23,027 nucleotides of DNA from IMG/VR virus record IMGVR_UViG_3300004457_000020, positions 1 to 23,027 of that record, one strand, 5' to 3'. Numbering within the stretch: position 1 is the first letter of the stretch; each line of letters starts with the position of its first letter. This DNA is from a virus. The notes under the pieces were generated by a model that was not told the origin of the DNA, ran no database searches, and worked only from the letters and a program-made list of their open reading frames with translations. This document shows positions 9,094 to 22,345 of this stretch, in pieces. The position numbers and the translations under genes were made by a program.

Positions 9094-10194
9094 TCACTTT
9101 AGGTCACGGACTGAACCGTGTCCTCCGAAGAAAGTAGTCCATAGTTCTCCCATAGTTCGGTACATTCCTTCTTGTCCAAGACGGTTGATTGCGAATGGGT
9201 CGCCGGTTTCGATACCGGACTCAAAGTATTGCGTAGGAATAGCAGTAGAGAAGTAGAGGTAATCCGTGTCGAGGAAATACATACGGCTCAATGTGTCTGC
9301 TTGAACATCCTTAGATGGAATAATTGGCACACCGTTGTAGGTAGCGACGATAAATCCTGCTTCAATACCCGGAACACCCTTAACTCCATTGTAGGTAGGG
9401 GTGATACGCTTTTCTTCCATAAATCGTTGTTGCGATTGGAGAAGTTGTTGAAGGCGCATCAAAGTGTCATATCCAGTGAGGATGACCTTTGGATTTCCAC
9501 CACGAGTCCAGCACTTTTGGAACAAAGAGTCCAAGTGGTCGAGTGACAAAGTTCGGTCAGTACCGGAGTTAGAATCTTCTTCTGCAACGGACCAAGAGTT
9601 TGCACTTCGGTCAATTGAGTAGATGTCTTCTGCGGAACCAGCAACGAGGCCAGTAGCGATACGGTCAAGAGACTCAAAATCGTTTCCAGCAACAGTAGCC
9701 TTGTCAACAGTGAGCATTTTGTTAATATGTTCTGCGTGATGCTTACCCATTTCTTCTTTGAGGATTGAACGAATGTCGCCCAGTCCATCATCTTTGTCAG
9801 CAAGGAACATTGCGGTTTCGCTCATGTCGAATGTGTGAACAATCGTCTTTGGCTTTGCGGCAATGTGTTGGAAAGTAGGCTTGGTAGTGTCCGGTAGGGT
9901 TGCGTTTTCTGCAACACCGCCGCCAACAGCAAACGAAGGTCGCTCGGTGATGACTCGCCATCCACTGCGTTCCCACGGTCGCTTTGGTAGAATTGAAAAT
10001 GCGTTGAACTCTTGGTTCAATTGTGACCAAACTTTGCGACCATAAATCGCTTGGTATGTTCCTGCTGTTGTACTCATCATTGGGCTGTCAGCCTTGAGTA
10101 ATTCACTACCGGAGTAGGAATATCCCATTGCATTGCCAGCACCGTAAAAGTACCGTTCCATGTCAGTTACGCTTCGTATGTAATCTCTTGCCAT
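9094..10194 (-). CDS. Major capsid protein (HK97 fold)
   Basis: The protein has 366 residues, with ATG 10194 preceded by an A-rich leader and GGAGTGATATTAG. The order matches the HK97 family: an N-terminal arm, an E-loop/spine-helix-like region (KTIVHTFDMSETAMFL, IRSILKEEMGKHHAEHINKM), DKATVAGNDF, then the P/A-domain region (NPKVILTGYDTLMRLQQLLQ) and the late strand pattern FIVATYNGVPIIPSKD ... SRMYFLDTDYLYF. This is the shell subunit that assembles on the scaffold encoded just upstream and expands after proteolysis and DNA packaging. Position directly after the protease-scaffold gene agrees. No separate delta domain is evident at the N-terminus, which fits a scaffold made from another gene. 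Confidence 0.88.
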   Translation of the reverse strand: MARDYIRSVTDMERYFYGAGNAMGYSYSGSELLKADSPMMSTTAGTYQAIYGRKVWSQLNQEFNAFSILPKRPWERSGWRVITERPSFAVGGGVAENATLPDTTKPTFQHIAAKPKTIVHTFDMSETAMFLADKDDGLGDIRSILKEEMGKHHAEHINKMLTVDKATVAGNDFESLDRIATGLVAGSAEDIYSIDRSANSWSVAEEDSNSGTDRTLSLDHLDSLFQKCWTRGGNPKVILTGYDTLMRLQQLLQSQQRFMEEKRITPTYNGVKGVPGIEAGFIVATYNGVPIIPSKDVQADTLSRMYFLDTDYLYFSTAIPTQYFESGIETGDPFAINRLGQEGMYRTMGELWTTFFGGHGSVRDLK

Positions 10195-10226: not shown

Positions 10227-11117
10227 TCAAGCCCCTCGTGTTACCGATGAGGCGAGATTATGAACTTCATCCCAAGACATGTTGCTCAAGTCTTGAGTGG
10301 ATGGTACTTCAACATTAGAGAAAGAAGCCGACTTTTGAATAGTCGTTGCCCCTGTAGCCATGTTGTCAATGCGCTCACTAAGTGAGTTAATTGACTTCAT
10401 AACTTCACTCAATGGTTGACGAGCATCAAATTGTGCTTTTTCAATTTGTTGTTTTGCGATAAGTTGTTCGTTAGCAAAACGACTTGAGAATTGTGATTCA
10501 AGGTCGCCACGGAATCCTTGTTCCATTGCGGCGGCTTTGTAAACTTCGTAAGCGGCTTCAACATCGGATGCTGAAACATTGTTTGGGTGAATGTAACCTT
10601 TGCTCATTGAAACAGGTCCAAGTGCGCCGGATGGTGTTTTGCCACCGGATGTAGTAACTGCGCTAATAGCACCAGTTGAAGGAGAACCGTTTTCTTGACC
10701 TCGGCCACGAACTTGTCCACCAAAGTAATCAGCACCATCAACGGCATCGGGATTATCGAAGCCGCCCATTTGTGATTTTTCTAAGTTATCAAAATGGTTT
10801 CGTGCTTCTCCGGTATTAACACCAGCGGATTTGAGGGTGTCTTCCATCCAGTTAAGGTATTCGGCTGTAATTACATCGCTGTATTCACTCTTTTCAAACG
10901 GGTTGTCTTTCTTTTCAGTCATCTTTTCATCATCCTTTTTATCATCGTCTTTATCTTTAGCGGCGAATGGGTTTTCCGATTCTTCTTTATCTTCGGAAGA
11001 ATCTTTCTTTTCATCAATAGCATCTTTGAGTGCGGGAGGTAGTTCTCCTTTTTCCATTGCGTCAAGTCGTGCTTCAAGTCTGTTCATTACATTGTTTAAA
11101 TCGTTATTTTCTGTCAT
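10227..11117 (-). CDS. Nested scaffold protein from internal start (lambda Nu3-like)
   Basis: Within the protease gene, an in-frame ATG at 11117 (residue 198 of the long product, MTENNDLNN) is preceded by AAGGAGGACACCACA, the best Shine-Dalgarno match in the region, at 8-base spacing. It starts exactly after the protease domain ends (INPEAQFRILKEDTT). The product of about 296 residues would be free scaffold: an N-terminal amphipathic helix, charged linker and C-terminal MSWDEVH helix. Lambda and other phages make scaffold from a nested in-frame start in the protease gene (known precedent). Expression here is inferred from the signal alone. Confidence 0.65.
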   Translation of the reverse strand: MTENNDLNNVMNRLEARLDAMEKGELPPALKDAIDEKKDSSEDKEESENPFAAKDKDDDKKDDEKMTEKKDNPFEKSEYSDVITAEYLNWMEDTLKSAGVNTGEARNHFDNLEKSQMGGFDNPDAVDGADYFGGQVRGRGQENGSPSTGAISAVTTSGGKTPSGALGPVSMSKGYIHPNNVSASDVEAAYEVYKAAAMEQGFRGDLESQFSSRFANEQLIAKQQIEKAQFDARQPLSEVMKSINSLSERIDNMATGATTIQKSASFSNVEVPSTQDLSNMSWDEVHNLASSVTRGA

Positions 11118-11708
11118 TGTGGTGTCCTCCTTAAGAATACGAAATTGCGCTTCGGGGTTAATCCCTTTTTCGCAAATCGTAATTTCGTGCAGTTCCATTT
11201 TACTTATTTCTTGGTAATCTCCGTGTGTTCCATCGGATTTACGCACTCTCTTGAATGCTTGTCCACCAATGGAAAATCCTTGCAGATTACCCTTACGGAT
11301 TTCTGCGGCTACTTCACGAGCCTTTTCAATGTCGTTACGAAGTGAAACAACGACAAACATACCAGCATCATCAACTTCGGATTTCCACATCCGACCATTT
11401 GAATCTACATAGGAATCAATAACTTCTCCTACTTGAATGTTAGAATGAGCGAGTTGAACATTGCGGAACTTCTCACTCTTCATGAATCCGCCAAAAGCAT
11501 CCTTTAGTGCTGAACGGGTAATAAGGTCGCCTTGTTTATCCACCAGTTCAACTGATGCATACCCAGCGATAACCATATCGGAACTGCCCTTAATGAGAGC
11601 AATGCCGGAGGTAGGTCGCTTTAGGGACAACATTACCCTTCGATTCTTCGTCATGGTATATAGACTGTATCTTTCACACTGAAAGAGTCGGAGTACCATC
11701 TTCATCAT
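10227..11708 (-). CDS. Prohead protease fused to scaffold
   Basis: The longest frame has 493 residues from ATG 11708. ATG 11654 (MTKNRRV), just after the upstream stop, is an equally possible start, and neither has a strong ribosome-binding site. Residues about 43-192 are an HK97-type prohead serine protease: VIAGYASVELVDKQGDLI, catalytic His88 in VQLAHSN, Ser146 in LQGFSIGGQA, and the family motif MELHEITICEKGINPEAQF. The remainder is scaffold-like: a charged coiled region (about 205-275), a Gly/Ser linker, a helical stretch (SASDVEAAYEVYKAAAMEQG) and a C-terminal motif NMSWDEVHNLA. The protease would cut scaffold and capsid N-termini during maturation. An internal start at residue 198 probably also yields scaffold alone. 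Confidence 0.88.
   Translation of the reverse strand: MMKMVLRLFQCERYSLYTMTKNRRVMLSLKRPTSGIALIKGSSDMVIAGYASVELVDKQGDLITRSALKDAFGGFMKSEKFRNVQLAHSNIQVGEVIDSYVDSNGRMWKSEVDDAGMFVVVSLRNDIEKAREVAAEIRKGNLQGFSIGGQAFKRVRKSDGTHGDYQEISKMELHEITICEKGINPEAQFRILKEDTTMTENNDLNNVMNRLEARLDAMEKGELPPALKDAIDEKKDSSEDKEESENPFAAKDKDDDKKDDEKMTEKKDNPFEKSEYSDVITAEYLNWMEDTLKSAGVNTGEARNHFDNLEKSQMGGFDNPDAVDGADYFGGQVRGRGQENGSPSTGAISAVTTSGGKTPSGALGPVSMSKGYIHPNNVSASDVEAAYEVYKAAAMEQGFRGDLESQFSSRFANEQLIAKQQIEKAQFDARQPLSEVMKSINSLSERIDNMATGATTIQKSASFSNVEVPSTQDLSNMSWDEVHNLASSVTRGA
11118..11130 (-). promoter_or_regulatory. Strong internal ribosome-binding site for the scaffold
   Basis: GGAGG (complement of 11126-11130) with the spacer ACACCACA leads to the in-frame ATG at 11117. 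It lies at the domain boundary between protease and scaffold, which is what a nested scaffold gene needs. Confidence 0.65.
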
Positions 11709-14700
11709 CTAAAACGATAGACTCGTCTGCATCTGTCTTCATTTCAATGTGTGTGATAGGTTTTTTCTCGTCATCCCCCGAATCTACATCCCTTTCTTGT
11801 TCTTCGGGTCTTTTTTTGCCATCGTAGTCGGGTAAATTGCTCTCTTCTGTCAATTTAGTAGGGCCACTTGGCGACTCAACTGGCGTTGCCATGTCTATTC
11901 CTAAGCCTCTTGGCCCTGTCCAAGTGAGTTTTTCTTTAGCCAGTAGGTCTAAAGCCCGACTAATTACCTCAAGTGCCTTCTTTGTTGAGGGTTTGAGAAG
12001 TCGGTTGTCATCTTTTTCTTCTAATATACCAGCCGATTCATCTTCTTGTTGTTCACGAGTAGGAATTTCTTCTTCATCCATTACATTTGATTTAACAAGG
12101 TGGCCTTCAAGCATCAATGGTGCTAATGGATGCCAATATGGATGCAAACTTTCTGCTAATGTAAGTGAATAATTCGATTTTGTTAAGTCACCTAATGCGG
12201 CAGAAGGGTTATGTAAGTACCAATGGTCTTCAATTCTTGATACTTGATATGAAACAGTATCAACATCTTTGAGTATTACTTGTAATACACCATCATTGTA
12301 TTCTAAATCATGTGGAATAAGAATTGGTGCAAATGATTTTGTCATTAAATCAAGAGATTCAGCACTGGCCGCACCTTCACCTTCACCTTCACTTTCAATT
12401 TCACGAACTTGAACATTGAATACATCACGGTCTTTTCTGCGTTTCTTTGTAACACCCGTTACAGTTGCTCTTATAATGTCACCAACTTTGAAAGTCCGTT
12501 GTTGATTATGGGCTGTTCCTACATCCATGTAAAATTGATTCTTGTAAGTAACAGCACGATTACCTAACGACTCTCCATCAATGATTGGTCCTGCACCTAA
12601 TTGATATGTGAATGGTCCTTTACCTCTACGGTCAAGAACTATAAAATTAAAGTCACGGCTTTTGCGTAGTAACAACCACTTAGGATGACGACGCTCTCCT
12701 TTCATGTAAGTTGACTTATTATCACGCAACAAAACAATTTTATGTTCTTCTTGTAATATCTTTACTGCGTCTTCAAGTCCTTCTTCATCAGTCATTTTTG
12801 TATCATGCGGTCCGGGTATAATGACATTTTCGTGACTGTCAAACTGCCCTCTTAGGATTTTCATACGCTCATGCATCAACATTTCTGCTACATTTGTATC
12901 ATCGTAAGTAATAATATCAATGATGTTTAAATCCTCTTCACCTACTATACCATCAATAACAAAATTATTATCATTCAGTTCAGCAAGACTTTCTTTGAAT
13001 GCTTTCTTTAATCCTACTTTACGACCATTTTCATCGTAAGTGGTAATTTCATCGTCGTTTTGTACGATAATAACCCGCTTACCATCATACCATTTACTCA
13101 CTACCCATGAACCACTAAACCCTCGTAAGTGTTCAAGGTCACTTAAATCAAAAATACGATGCATAGGTCTTACAGGAGGAACCCATTTAGCGTCTTCGGA
13201 TTTTGTCAGCATAACATCGGGATTTAAAAGAGAAGTAATGTAATCACTCATTTCACTTAAGTTAAGAGCAGTAGGGTTTTCTTCTCCTATCACATTAAAA
13301 GTTTCTTTATCATAATCTAAAAACGGTGGAGTTGGATTTGGATGAGGTGGCATTGACTCAAGTAGTTGTTTAGTTTCCGGTGTTCCGTGAATTTCTTCTA
13401 ATGCGCCTTGCCAAGTAGGATGATATAATTGAGGTTCAGTAAATGTACCAATCGTCGGTTGCCCTTGAGCATCAAACTCAAAACCAAACGATGACTGTTG
13501 AGGTACAGCAGAAGAATGCACCATATCAGCACCAGTGTGTGTAGGCATGATACCAAAAGAAGAAGGGTTCACTCCACCAATAGGAACCGGGTCTGTGTCA
13601 ATACCTACTTTTCTTACCGATTCTATTCTTGGTGTCATGTTATCATCATTAACTGCATCAACATCTAAAGATACAATACCATCGAGGCGATTTTTAGTTC
13701 TACGGGTGTAGCGTTTTTTATTACCACTACCAGCACCTTCTCGGTTATGCACATCGTTATCACTGGCTGAATAATACGATAAACCATTATTTTCCATATT
13801 AGAACCAAATTCTTTTGTATTAAAATGATTTATGGCGTGTCCAACAGTATTATGAATAGGGTGTGTTTTCCAATTTTTATGTCTTGATTGTGCGCTATCA
13901 ATAGCATGGTGTAAACCGTTTTCTTGATGGTCTTGAGCAAATTGCTCATCTGCATGCGTTCTATGAAGCATAAAGTCATCGTTAAACTTACCACTTGTCA
14001 TTAACTGTCCTACTGTAGAAACATTCAAAGGAACTTCTCTTGCATTTGACTCATCAATTATTCGCTGTACATGTTGTCTTAAGCGTGATTTTTGTTCGCT
14101 GGTTTTACCTTCTAAGCCCATACCTTCTAAGACTTCATCCGGTGTCATGTTACCGTTTAATTCAAAACTGTTATCGAGCATATGACTCATAACATTTCGA
14201 TGAAACCCTTTTTGTTGTGGTCTAACTTCTTTTGTACTATCTTGCATACGATACACAGACGATTTGATACCGTGAACATCATGGTCTGCATTAGCAATCC
14301 ATCGTTCAGCATCATGCATCAACCGGTCGTGATTTGCCATAAACTTTACAGGGTCGTTAATATCAAAGTGGCTTGGGTCATGTTCCATCACCATTGGATA
14401 AAGTTTTTTTGCGGCTTCAAGTACAGCCTTTCGACTGTTTTTTGCAATATTGTGTGTTACACCTGCATCTTTTTTCCACCAATTACTCGCTTTACCAAGT
14501 ACGGCTTCTGCTGAACGGTTTTGTATTTTGTTTAATTCAGCCTGTCCTTCATATAATTCTTGACGCATTGCTTCAATCTCTTCGGGTGTATCAGCGTATT
14601 GCATTTGTTCCGAAATTTCATTAAGTCTTTCATTCAATTGAGTTTCTTTTTCCATAGCGGGTAACATACTACCAAACTTCAAAGCGGTGTTGATAGTATT

Positions 14701-18173: not shown

Positions 18174-18509
18174 TTATACCTCATTTACTTTTGCTGTCTG
18201 TGCAAGTTCGTGAATATCATCCCACGACATATTATGGAATGCTTCGTTTGTTTGAGGTACAGAAGACCTCTCACCTTTCATTATTGAGCCGTCATTCATA
18301 TCATTTCGGAAAGCATCATTCATGACATTTTCCGTAAGAGGTGTAGTGGCTTTTACCAAGCCCATTTTCTTTAGCATAATACTTGGATTTGATACCATCT
18401 TACGAAGGCGTACATTTTCTTGTTTAAGTGATTCAAGGTCGTTATCCATGTTTTCCATTTTAGTAATCAATACTCCCATTAACCGTTCCGCATCCGATTG
18501 TTCAGTCAT
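18174..18509 (-). CDS. Mini scaffold-like protein sharing the MSWD C-terminal motif
   Basis: The protein has 111 residues from ATG 18509, behind TGAGGTGATTAGAT, with the upstream stop inside the element. Residues about 8-40 form a coiled coil (LMGVLITKMENMDNDLESLK). The C-terminus reads NMSWDDIHELAQTA, almost the same as NMSWDEVHNLASSV at the end of the protease-scaffold protein, and both are preceded by a VPxT element. Both also begin MTE followed by a helix. The gene therefore looks like a shortened paralogue of the scaffold: coiled coil plus a terminal capsid-binding helix. It may act as an assembly chaperone or a portal-capsid linker. The similarity is seen directly; the role is inferred. 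Confidence 0.7.
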   Translation of the reverse strand: MTEQSDAERLMGVLITKMENMDNDLESLKQENVRLRKMVSNPSIMLKKMGLVKATTPLTENVMNDAFRNDMNDGSIMKGERSSVPQTNEAFHNMSWDDIHELAQTAKVNEV

Positions 18510-18920: not shown

Positions 18921-20708
18921 TTATGCACCCTTGAAGTTTCTTGCATTCATAAGAGCATTACTATTTTGCTGTCCAATAGAGGGTGGTGGGCCTCTTTGTT
19001 GAACACTTGTTACTGGGGAACCGCTACCAGCCGATGTGCGGCGTTGCGGTGCGGCTGGCCCTCTATCACGAAGTCCCATGCCTTGACCTCCGGGTTGCGG
19101 AGGGGGCATTGGCATTCCACCTTGCGGCATACCCGGAGGCATACCTCTCATTGGCATTCCACCCATTGGCATTCCACCCATAGGCATTCCACCCGGAGGT
19201 GGCATACCGCCACCCATTGGAGGTGGTGCGCCGCCCGGAGGTGGTGCGCCGCCCGGAGGTGGTGCGCCGCCCGGAGGGGCGGCAGGTTGAGGTGGAGGCT
19301 TACGATAGACAAATCGAATATCACTACTGGATTCACCGTCAATTAAATCTGCTACAAAGCCAAGTGCTGTCATACGCTGTGCAACATTTAATTCTTGTTC
19401 ATCACGGCGTAGTCGAGTGATTTCATCTTCTTCTTCATTTGGATAAAGAGTAAGTTTCCAATCGTGAACGCCCATTTGTTTGAGCATTTTAGGGAACAAA
19501 ACATCGGTATAGATTTTTTGTCCAAACTCAACAGCACGATTTGTAACAAGGATTTGCATACCTTCATTACTTAATCCACCGGATTTACCACTGTCAACCA
19601 TGAATACACTTGATACACCGAAGTAAGCGGCTATACGATTGCGTATTTCATCCCGAACAGCGGTGTACTGCATTTCTTCTAAGGTGTCCATAAACTTAAT
19701 CCAGTTTACACCACCACGGCCTGTTTGACTTTCAATACCGACTTTCGGAATATAGTGAGGGTCCCGTTCCATTTTCTCATCAACTGATTTCCAAAACGAT
19801 TTCATTGACTCAAGGTTATCAGTAGTTACCGAAATAATACCTTTTGGCATTCTTCGCTTTTGATATGCAGTGTACATGTAATTGTCCATTGCTGTGAGAG
19901 TCATGGCTTGTCGCCACATGGTGTTGACAGGTGAACGGCCATACAATTTTGTTGGATTGTATTTACTTAAGTGGAGGACTTCACCTTCAATGAAGTATTG
20001 TGTTTTACCGCTACCAGCCATATTAACATAATGAACATCAAACAAATCCATACCACATGTTTCACAAGTATCGTCTTCTGCGTGAGTCTTTACTTGGTCA
20101 CGATGAATACGACACACCTTATATCGCCCACCACGAACACCACGCTTATCAGCAACAATACGCATAAAGATAGGGTCGCCACGAATCATTTCTTTAACAC
20201 GGAAAAAAGCAACTTCTTTTGATTCCGGGTCAATATAGTATTCTTTGACTAAAATTAAAAACGCATCATCAACGATGTTAAGGTCGTTTTCAACTTCATT
20301 AAGAAGGTGAATAAATTGTTGGTCCATGCTATTGTTTTGTTCTAACAACCATTTTACATATGTTAATTCTTGATGGTCGGGTTCACGAACTGGTCCTTGA
20401 CATACACTGCAAACTTCAACATCGTGTTGAAATTCTTCGCTACATTCTGTGCATTTTTTATGAAACTTCTTCTCAAAGAAATGCCCTCTTCGGAACATCT
20501 CTTGACGGATTTTTGAAAGAACAGTGCGGAGAATCAAACATTCTGTACTTACTGCATAAAGCGCAGGTATGGTAATACCTTGCGCCATTACTGGTTCTTG
20601 AATACCACTTGTCCAAAGTGGCATAGTTGGAGTTGGCGACTCCTTTCGCTTGAATGGTTTTCCAAGTGTAGTGATAAATCGGCTAATTCTACTGTTATCG
20701 TCTGCCAT
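18921..20708 (-). CDS. Portal protein with zinc-binding insertions
   Basis: The protein has 595 residues. ATG 20708 overlaps the previous stop as TGATG behind GGAGGGACTT. The portal ring sits at one capsid vertex and passes DNA during packaging and release. Family signs are VLHLSKYNPTKLYGRSPVNT, the following helices, KRRMPKGIISVTTDNLESM and IRNRIAAYFGVSSVFMVDSG, then NRAVEFGQKIYTDVLFPKML. Two unusual insertions are seen: C86-x2-C89 with C100-x2-C103 (KCTECSE ... VCSVCQG), and C199-x2-H202 with C215-x2-C218 (VCRIHRD ... TCETCGM). The C-terminal 120 residues are a Pro/Gly/Met-rich repetitive tail. The overlap with the LAGLIDADG gene suggests coupled translation. Confidence 0.87.
   Translation of the reverse strand: MADDNSRISRFITTLGKPFKRKESPTPTMPLWTSGIQEPVMAQGITIPALYAVSTECLILRTVLSKIRQEMFRRGHFFEKKFHKKCTECSEEFQHDVEVCSVCQGPVREPDHQELTYVKWLLEQNNSMDQQFIHLLNEVENDLNIVDDAFLILVKEYYIDPESKEVAFFRVKEMIRGDPIFMRIVADKRGVRGGRYKVCRIHRDQVKTHAEDDTCETCGMDLFDVHYVNMAGSGKTQYFIEGEVLHLSKYNPTKLYGRSPVNTMWRQAMTLTAMDNYMYTAYQKRRMPKGIISVTTDNLESMKSFWKSVDEKMERDPHYIPKVGIESQTGRGGVNWIKFMDTLEEMQYTAVRDEIRNRIAAYFGVSSVFMVDSGKSGGLSNEGMQILVTNRAVEFGQKIYTDVLFPKMLKQMGVHDWKLTLYPNEEEDEITRLRRDEQELNVAQRMTALGFVADLIDGESSSDIRFVYRKPPPQPAAPPGGAPPPGGAPPPGGAPPPMGGGMPPPGGMPMGGMPMGGMPMRGMPPGMPQGGMPMPPPQPGGQGMGLRDRGPAAPQRRTSAGSGSPVTSVQQRGPPPSIGQQNSNALMNARNFKGA
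19151..19274 (-). repeat. Tandem repeats coding for the portal's Pro-Gly-Met tail
   Basis: Three exact copies of an 18-base unit (plus-strand 19221-19238, 19239-19256, 19257-19274) encode PPPGGA repeats. Three near-exact copies of a 15-base unit (19151-19195) encode GGMPM. They are in-frame and markedly G+C-rich against the AT-rich surroundings. Confidence 0.85.
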
Positions 20709-22006
20709 CAAAGTCCCTCCGCATATCCACCTATGGTATCAGCATCCAATCCCCACTTAGACAAGAGGTTATCGGCTTTCTTTTTATCATCTTTCCAATT
20801 ATTGAAAGTGACAAGTTTATGTAATTCGTCTTTTCTTAATTTATCTTTAGTGTCAATAAAAGTTAAAACAGCCTTTGCCTGTAGCGATTTCATTTTTAAA
20901 TGTGGTAAGATACCTTTGAGTAATTGGCGTAAATCATCCTTTGATTGAAAAACAAGGCGGTGAAGACTCCGATTACTATTTTTATGTATTTTTTGATTAA
21001 GCACTAATCGGCCACATCCTAACGATTTATGTAGATTTTCGCAGTGGTCTTTACCTCTATCACCTGTTGCAACAAATGTTGCTCTTGGTTCACCTCTTTC
21101 ACTGATAAAAATACTCCCGTCAGCGTCAAGGAAACCTGCGGCATACGCCCAAATGTCTTTGATAATCAAACCGTGTGTTCCCATCTTAACAAAAAGACCA
21201 CGACTGTGCGCTCGATAAATGTCTAATTCTTCTCCGTACATTTTGATAAGCATACCAACTTTACTTGGTGTGATTGATTTATGTAAAACCCCAACACCAC
21301 GCCGAACAATTTCACGACTACTTAATTCACCGTCAATTTCTAATTGCTTTGAAATATATTCAAGGGTGTTTTTATCATCTTTTGAAATTGAGTCAATTTG
21401 ATGTAGAGTACCACGCCACATTTTTTGAGCATCTTTACGCATTTGCATAGCGTCAACCCAATTTTCTTGTTCAGCGGTTCCCCAGTTATCAAGGTCATTT
21501 AACATTGAAAGAACAGAAGTTGCTTTCAAAAACATTTGACACGCCTGTTGAAGTCCTGTCTTTCTTGTTTCGCCAAACTTTCGCAGTGATTTTAATGAAC
21601 GGTCGGTTAAACCCATGTAACGAATACTTTCTTGCAAACCATCACTCCATGATAGATTGTTAATAGTAGCCTCAACTTCCATCGCTTTAATAGTTCTTAC
21701 ATCATTGATGATGTCGTCAATCATATTACGATTGCTTTTGTCATTACGCCGCATCTTTCGACACATACGAATAATTGAATTAGCATCTTTACCATATGTA
21801 GATTCAAGCCAACCATCGCCGTTTTTAGCAAAACCGTATGATTTTATTTCATCATTCAAAAAAAGCGTTGAGTCTTTTTTAATTGGTACGCTTTGGTGAA
21901 TATAATTTGGATGTTGAGTAAGGCTGTTGTAAACGCTTTTGGTGAAATCGTCACCTACAATAGCAGGTGCATCATACACATCTCCGACAATCGCACTACC
22001 CCACAT
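20708..22006 (-). CDS. Protein with LAGLIDADG-type homing endonuclease domain
   Basis: The protein has 432 residues from ATG 22006 behind GAGGTAGTCAAT. Residues 285-300 read IWAYAAGFLDADGSIF, a clear single LAGLIDADG helix with the acidic D296, followed by a beta-rich stretch and helices (RATFVATGDRGKD, LHRLVFQSKDDLRQLLKGIL) as in one LAGLIDADG domain. Single-motif enzymes act as dimers on DNA (known). Residues about 213-275 (LEYISKQLEIDGELSSREIV ... FVKMG) look like a winged helix. Residues 1-210 are helical and unrecognised. It sits immediately before the portal, where a terminase is often found, and overlaps it by TGATG, so it is built into the operon. It may be a homing enzyme or a domesticated packaging or regulatory protein. 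Confidence 0.75.
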   Translation of the reverse strand: MWGSAIVGDVYDAPAIVGDDFTKSVYNSLTQHPNYIHQSVPIKKDSTLFLNDEIKSYGFAKNGDGWLESTYGKDANSIIRMCRKMRRNDKSNRNMIDDIINDVRTIKAMEVEATINNLSWSDGLQESIRYMGLTDRSLKSLRKFGETRKTGLQQACQMFLKATSVLSMLNDLDNWGTAEQENWVDAMQMRKDAQKMWRGTLHQIDSISKDDKNTLEYISKQLEIDGELSSREIVRRGVGVLHKSITPSKVGMLIKMYGEELDIYRAHSRGLFVKMGTHGLIIKDIWAYAAGFLDADGSIFISERGEPRATFVATGDRGKDHCENLHKSLGCGRLVLNQKIHKNSNRSLHRLVFQSKDDLRQLLKGILPHLKMKSLQAKAVLTFIDTKDKLRKDELHKLVTFNNWKDDKKKADNLLSKWGLDADTIGGYAEGL

Positions 22007-22027: not shown

Positions 22028-22345
22028 TCATTTAGTCCTTACCACCAAAACGCTCTTGACAATTGTAGGTTTTCCGCCTACTCCTTGTTTCTTTGCTCGT
22101 TTTCTTTTGGTGGCGGCTTGCTTTTGTCCTGTTGACATTGAGCCGCTGGTTTTGGGAGTTTTATTGCTTACTTTTATGCTGGGTCTGCACTTTGGATAAC
22201 CCTTGCTTGATTTACTTGCTTTAGAACGGCCACATGGAGGATGCTTGCCGTCTTTGTTTTTGCGTGATACATCTACCCACTTTTCTTTGAACCATCGGTT
22301 CAAGTCTTTTACGATAAGAACATCGTAGCAGGTACATTGAGTCAT
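22028..22345 (-). CDS. Basic small protein of the CGR/YPKCRP (DUF5872-like) type
   Basis: The protein has 105 residues, with ATG 22345 directly after the stop of the tiny Cys-rich gene (TGA ATG). The core WFKEKWVDVSRKNKDGK ... PCGRSKASK ... YPKCRPSIKVS ... MSTGQKQAATKRKRAKK matches, from memory, a small basic family widespread in marine phages and large viruses (DUF5872/DUF6321-like). The function of that family is unknown; the many Lys and Arg suggest nucleic-acid binding. Additional cysteines sit at the N-terminus (QCTCYDV). Family naming needs a profile search; the coding call is firm. Confidence 0.72.
   Translation of the reverse strand: MTQCTCYDVLIVKDLNRWFKEKWVDVSRKNKDGKHPPCGRSKASKSSKGYPKCRPSIKVSNKTPKTSGSMSTGQKQAATKRKRAKKQGVGGKPTIVKSVLVVRTK

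Follow-up and report, generated by a model that had tools for sequence, protein, structure and literature searches.

A predicted ligase-derived pseudoenzyme in a giant head-block protein of magrovirus-type archaeal tailed viruses

Results and discussion

Gene organisation and identity of the virus

The window analysed here is the whole 23,027-nt stretch of IMG/VR record IMGVR_UViG_3300004457_000020 (positions 1 to 23,027). Nearly all of its coding lies on the minus strand, which carries a portal gene, three small ORFs, a gene for a 1944-aa protein, a head maturation protease gene, the major capsid protein (MCP) gene and tail genes (Table 1). The protease gene lies directly downstream of the giant ORF and overlaps it by 35 bases. 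The order portal, giant protein, protease, MCP was found to be constant in all sufficiently long loci, and the homologues of the giant protein, about 1700-2150 aa in length, occupy the same gene position. Upstream of the portal gene, an ORF at 20708-22006 (minus strand) matches the HNH/LAGLIDADG-type endonuclease family phrog_5046 in its C-terminal part (E 2e-9) and may represent a homing endonuclease that has inserted close to the terminase, and a basic protein of 105 aa encoded at 22028-22345 (minus strand) matches DUF5872 (E 1e-11).

Table 1 Features of the window; residue numbers are those of the giant protein and tallies are over 130 homologous sequences
Feature	Coordinates	Strand	Evidence or remark
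MCP	9094..10194	-	PF17236; phrog_24667 (E 2e-58)
Head maturation protease	10227..11708	-	PF04586 (E 3e-9); phrog_23555
Giant head-block protein, 1944 aa	11674..17508	-	ORF; ligase-like domain near C-terminus
Ligase-like OB-fold part, residues ~1626-1712	12373..12633	-	structure match to Pfu ligase 2cfm
Ligase-like nucleotidyltransferase (NTase) domain, predicted catalytically dead, residues ~1440-1625	12634..13191	-	predicted structure, hhalign
Motif V counterpart WLLLR, from W1611 (ligases: WxKxK)	12664..12678	-	L1613 and R1615 opposite the lysines
Family signature STYMKGERRHPKW, between motifs IV and V	12676..12714	-	nearly invariant
Motif IV counterpart HKIVLLRD, from residue 1589 (ligases: EGxxxK)	12721..12744	-	K1590 opposite Glu, R1595 opposite Lys
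Motif IIIa counterpart NIIDII	12910..12927	-	D1531 kept: D 128, E 2
Motif III counterpart DGI, residues 1519-1521 (ligases: DGE)	12946..12954	-	I1521 opposite Glu
Motif Ia counterpart DENG (ligases: SRxG)	13024..13035	-	Glu 1493 in place of Arg: E 98, D 8, R 0
Motif I counterpart KWYDGKR, residues 1472-1478	13075..13095	-	W1473 (13090-13092) at nucleophile Lys site
Portal protein, upstream of giant gene	18921..20711	-	PF04860; phrog_18178 (E 4e-66)

The window MCP shares 36% identity with that of HVTV-1 over 99% of its length, and both the HK97-type MCP and the portal are related to those of Druskaviridae haloviruses, as is characteristic of Magrovirales. A family B DNA polymerase, also a mark of that order, is encoded in 11 of the 16 longer family records, including the window's close relatives G002 and G011; the 23-kb window stops short of this region. 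Judging by this gene profile, which fits, the window comes from a magrovirus-type archaeal tailed virus, and its kinship points to Poseidoniales (marine group II, MGII archaea) as the host.

The distribution of the ligase-like domain described below was assessed in a sample of 80 loci picked by their MCP, independently of the domain itself. It was present in 53 of these loci; the 27 without it comprise 17 halovirus-like contigs (L263-L279), three loci with a compact head block and no giant gene (L280, L281 and L336) and seven in which the contig stops before the giant gene. No provirus with the domain was found in the bacterial and archaeal genomes searched, and neither the domain nor the giant protein had a match in a named phage collection.

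Ligase fold of the giant protein

A Pfam and PHROGs scan of the 1944-aa protein revealed no domain besides a ligase match, the sole credible hmmscan match of the whole protein being DNA_ligase_A_M (E 0.002). Against PF01068 the window protein alone scored 18.2 bits, under the 26.2 cut-off, and 26.5 bits with both stretches. Across the family, PF01068 was matched by all 29 scanned members (best E 1e-7), TIGR00574 (dnl1) by 28 of the 29 and five NCBI ligase models by 24 to 28. A PDB search with the family profile ranked archaeal ligases first (4eq5 of Thermococcus sibiricus, E 5e-6). Single ligase sequences were uninformative in hhalign; the signal was obtained with a profile of 11 phage ligases, which aligned to the family with a probability of 95% (E 2.8e-8). 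The N-terminal DNA-binding domain of archaeal ligases (PF04675), which phage ligases can lack, was not found in a Pfam scan of the giant protein.

Structure prediction with AlphaFold2 from 29 close homologues only gave an unusable model (pLDDT 54). Diverged relatives were reached via the capsid protein, and a domain of 35-50% identity was found in their giant proteins; prediction from 59 sequences then gave a model of residues 1426-1736 with a pLDDT of 88 and a pTM of 0.82. ATP-dependent DNA ligases led its Foldseek matches in the PDB, with mRNA guanylyltransferase and LigD lower among the best 50. VIA-align superposed the model on the Pyrococcus ligase 2cfm with a Z score of 22.5 over 285 residues, and on the NTase domain of human Lig1 with a Z score of 20-21 (2.4 Å, about 175 residues). 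The predicted structure thus has an NTase fold followed by an OB fold, as expected of a ligase, and the two parts together span residues 1440-1712 (nt 12373-13191, minus strand). In one clade (L304/L305/L311-L315/L321/L328/L338 and others) the OB part is missing and the NTase part is kept. We conclude that the domain derives from the core, NTase plus OB, of an ATP-dependent DNA ligase.

Loss of the active site

Residues at the ligase motifs were tallied over 130 distinct homologous sequences from 371 loci, many of which overlap. When the family was aligned by profile to intact phage ligases, W1473 rather than K1472 stood opposite the nucleophile Lys, a site occupied by Trp in 66 sequences, Tyr in 20, His in 13, Met in 10, Gln in 8, Phe in 8, Leu in 5 and Lys in none. 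The Glu of motif III is replaced by Ile, Val, Thr, Met, Ala or Leu in 130 of 130. At motif IV the Glu position holds D, K, E, P, Q, G or S, with Glu in 19 of 130, and the Lys position is Arg in 126. The first Lys of motif V has become Leu, Met, Val or Ile in every sequence, and the second, Lys in two of the 130, is mostly Arg, Ala or Thr. The RxDK of motif VI is absent from the end of the OB part, the ligase alignment ending before this motif. Residues of the fold shared with ligases are kept, namely G1476 (130 of 130), R1478 (129), R1548 (130) and W1611 (130), as is D1519 of the motif III counterpart. The domain therefore fails what defines an active ligase at the motif I Lys, the motif III Glu, the Glu and Lys of motif IV and the Lys pair of motif V. 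Since the whole family has lost the nucleophile together with the residues that handle the nucleotide and the metal, neither formation of lysyl-AMP nor nick sealing would be expected by known ligase chemistry. As judged from these alignments and the model, the domain must be catalytically dead in that sense, a true pseudoenzyme, and residues 1440-1712 almost certainly constitute a DNA-ligase-fold pseudoenzyme.

Could the activity have shifted to K1472? This Lys lies one residue off the canonical site in the window's own clade (72 of the 130 sequences), and an active nucleotidyltransferase using it as a displaced nucleophile could be imagined on that account. Elsewhere in the family the position is Val, Ile, Ala, His, Thr, Ser, Asp, Leu or Cys, a variability that argues against a shifted active site; it is W1473 that aligns with the nucleophile, and the losses extend to motifs III, IV and V, so that the combination of a nucleophilic Lys1472 with intact metal-binding residues was not seen. 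The homologues nearly refute this reading, to which we attach hardly any credence. Noncovalent binding of ATP or another nucleotide, in the role of a sensor, is very improbable too: the Arg and Gly of motif I, D1519 and D1531 are retained, but the residues that hold the nucleotide (the motif III Glu, the Glu and Lys of motif IV and the motif V Lys) are replaced.

An earlier note on this DNA, made from the sequence alone, had described a ligase-like NTase and OB fold with every catalytic position altered, inside the head-gene block. The strings that it quoted (KWYDGKR, DGI, HKIV and WLLLRK) are exact, and the fold is borne out by the model and its superposition on ligases, as it is by the profile searches against ligase families. 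The replacement of the nucleophile and of motifs III, IV and V holds across the 130 homologues, and the domain does lie between the portal and protease genes. The interval given, 12600-13200, was right for the NTase part and too short for the OB part, which reaches about 12373. The exchange of Lys and Trp at motif I did not prove common to the homologues: K1472 is limited to the 72 sequences mentioned above, and what all 130 share is a nucleophile site without Lys.

Conservation and selection

The ligase-like domain is the best-conserved stretch of the giant protein. By the Nei-Gojobori method, comparison of the window with eight relatives gave dN/dS values of 0.028-0.085 for residues 1440-1715, 0.19-0.35 for residues 1-1399 and 0.08-0.15 for the C-terminus; with synonymous sites almost saturated, it is the contrast between regions alone that is meaningful. 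The domain is under strong purifying selection. About 19 residues are invariant among 59 diverse domain sequences. An invariant patch, described by PMHRIF, LRGF(T,S)GxW and LRDxxSTYMxGExxHPKW, is what selection preserves, rather than the old catalytic residues. Loss of every catalytic residue, and of the OB part in one clade, might suggest a functionless relic in decay. A stretch that is the best conserved of its protein, with a dN/dS of 0.03-0.09 and these invariant positions, does not behave as one, and the low dN/dS rules this explanation out, leaving it next to no probability.

A second strongly conserved stretch was observed near the C-terminus of the giant protein, at residues 1861-1890 (TGPRGLGIDMATPVESPSGPT); it is also kept in the clade without the OB part.

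Function of the domain

What has to be explained is a dead ligase core with a constant place close to the C-terminal end of a giant protein, the gene of which lies between portal and protease in magrovirus-type archaeal tailed viruses. Judging by the position of its gene, the giant protein may be present in the virion. We propose, with a probability of roughly 0.55, that a ligase-descended pseudoenzyme has come to serve head assembly as a docking or structural module, a reading suggested by its position, its conservation pattern and the loss of the ligase residues. The old ligase surface would now belong to a head-assembly or internal virion protein, and would dock onto a head component such as the portal, the scaffold or the protease; packaged DNA, bound in a non-ligase mode, would be a less likely target.

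DNA binding of a more ligase-like kind was also considered, the earlier note having proposed a role in binding nicked DNA or DNA ends in the virion or in packaging. That the dead ligase would bind such DNA, or duplex DNA, in the head or at packaging appears rather unlikely. The ligase fold is itself a DNA-binding one, most of the family has retained the OB part, which is weakly basic (+3 in the window), and the motif I Arg is retained in 129 of the 130 sequences. Against this, the net charge of the NTase part is negative (-10 in the window, with a family median of -7), the motif Ia Arg has given way to Glu or Asp in 106 of the 130 and is Arg in none, one clade lacks the OB part, and the Pfam scan detected no PF04675. 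In viral ligases the motif Ia Arg contacts the 5' phosphate of the nick; its loss, together with the acidity of the domain, argues against classical nick binding. DNA binding through another face or a local basic patch is likewise less likely than docking. The pseudoenzyme part of the earlier interpretation consequently stands, and nick or end binding is left unsupported. A search of the literature turned up no relevant case of an inactive ligase that is a virion protein.

In HVTV-1 the comparable slot between portal and protease holds a 1313-aa protein with a zeta kinase and an ADP-ribosyltransferase, and in phage P1 the proteins DarA and Hdf are located inside the head (PMC12810830). The presence in the HVTV-1 slot of a different multidomain protein, without detectable homology to the giant protein, makes it a serious, albeit improbable, alternative that the giant protein is internal and ejected together with the genome, as the Dar proteins of P1 are, the dead ligase then being cargo or a host-targeting part. 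The giant protein showed no homology to HVTV-1 gp113-gp116 in profile comparison, and the domain is much more conserved than is usual for a host-targeting module.

Other short segments of head-block proteins were observed that may bear on assembly. The protease and a small ORF between the portal and giant genes (18174-18509, minus strand) share the C-terminal motif MSW[DE][DE][IV]Hx[LM]A (tails NMSWDEVHNLA and NMSWDDIHELA), which is kept at both C-termini in most of the sampled relatives and resembles a scaffold or capsid-targeting tail common to the two proteins. Short segments are also shared among several head-block proteins of Druskaviridae (L183; HVTV-1 gp115, gp116 and gp114 relatives), one of which, WVSDPTEQAPNRWT...GEHRYQETKP, occurs twice in gp115; these are possible capsid-sorting tags.

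The domain is a clear and widely conserved pseudoenzyme within a head-gene block, and as such allows a direct test of the reuse of an enzyme fold in virus assembly.

The published magrovirus ligase

Published accounts rank magroviruses with the most abundant viruses of the marine plankton and credit them with near self-sufficiency in DNA replication and a nearly complete replisome, of which an ATP-dependent DNA ligase, present in almost all genomes, is a part (PMC10160649, PMC10768690, PMC12999244); a ligase also appears in the profiles of Aoguangviridae (PMC10768690) and Apasviridae (PMC12999244). The 'ATP-dependent DNA ligase' of a group A magrovirus was published as adjoining the prohead protease gene (magrovirus ligase reports: PMC7318539, PMC10160649). 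This is the same adjacency as that of the giant gene, and the ligase of the published group A contig is therefore very probably the giant protein. The published protein is described as a replication enzyme, whereas the giant protein carries a dead domain in the head block.

We searched 41 magrovirus-like records (18 of at least 85 kb), and 40 of them had no PF01068 match beyond the giant protein. The remaining record, G030 (L423), encodes elsewhere in its genome a stand-alone ligase of 379 aa in which every motif is intact (E 2.5e-21), and its recovery indicates that the search does find true ligases. An NAD-dependent ligase was sought in 10 records and found in none. Since many of the records are fragments, a missing ligase does not prove absence. 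As the protein at the protease-adjacent position has been reported as a working ligase, the inventory of magrovirus replication proteins probably needs correcting; if the magrovirus 'ligase' is mostly the dead head-block domain, the published inventory is in error and magroviruses rely on the host for this enzyme.

Comparison with known systems

HVTV-1, a related archaeal tailed virus, likewise has a large multidomain protein, gp115, whose gene is placed between those of the portal and the protease. Gp115 and the giant protein differ in content, gp115 combining the kinase and transferase domains named above, and no sequence homology can be detected between them, nor did the giant-protein profile show homology to HVTV-1 gp112-gp116 and gp119.

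The domain shares with ATP-dependent DNA ligases (PF01068; Pfu 2cfm, T. sibiricus 4eq5, human Lig1/Lig3) the order of NTase and OB parts and the structural Gly, Arg and Trp positions. In these enzymes the nucleophile Lys, the motif Ia Arg, the Glu of motifs III and IV and the motif V Lys are intact, whereas in the giant protein they are replaced. Archaeal ligases further possess an N-terminal DNA-binding domain; none was detected by the Pfam scan in the giant protein, where the ligase-like domain is embedded in a head-block protein. The phage-type ligase of G030 is intact and encoded by its own ORF in a virus that also carries the dead domain, its giant protein belonging to the clade without the OB part.

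As to origin, among the viral ligases tried those of the halovirus-like contigs L276 and L279 scored best with one family profile, and those of L276 and G030 with the other. All of these scores were weak, and cellular archaeal ligases outscored the viral ones. It is nevertheless tempting to regard the dead domain as a halovirus head-block ligase gene that was fused and then inactivated. A wider scenario can be offered tentatively, as a possibility on the doubtful side: magroviruses would have made a ligase into an essential non-catalytic head component, by which the giant protein is docked onto the portal or the packaged genome; the dead state would be ancestral to the whole group, and the related haloviruses would have kept the ligase gene of that head block intact. 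The contigs L276 (3059-4537) and L279 (408-1943), whose MCP is related, do encode stand-alone ATP-dependent ligases of about 500 aa in the head block, upstream of the protease, and an N-terminal DNA-binding domain was also detected in that of L276. Unlike the dead domain, these ligases are separate genes and retain the motifs KLDG, DAE, EGxxLK and WIKxK.
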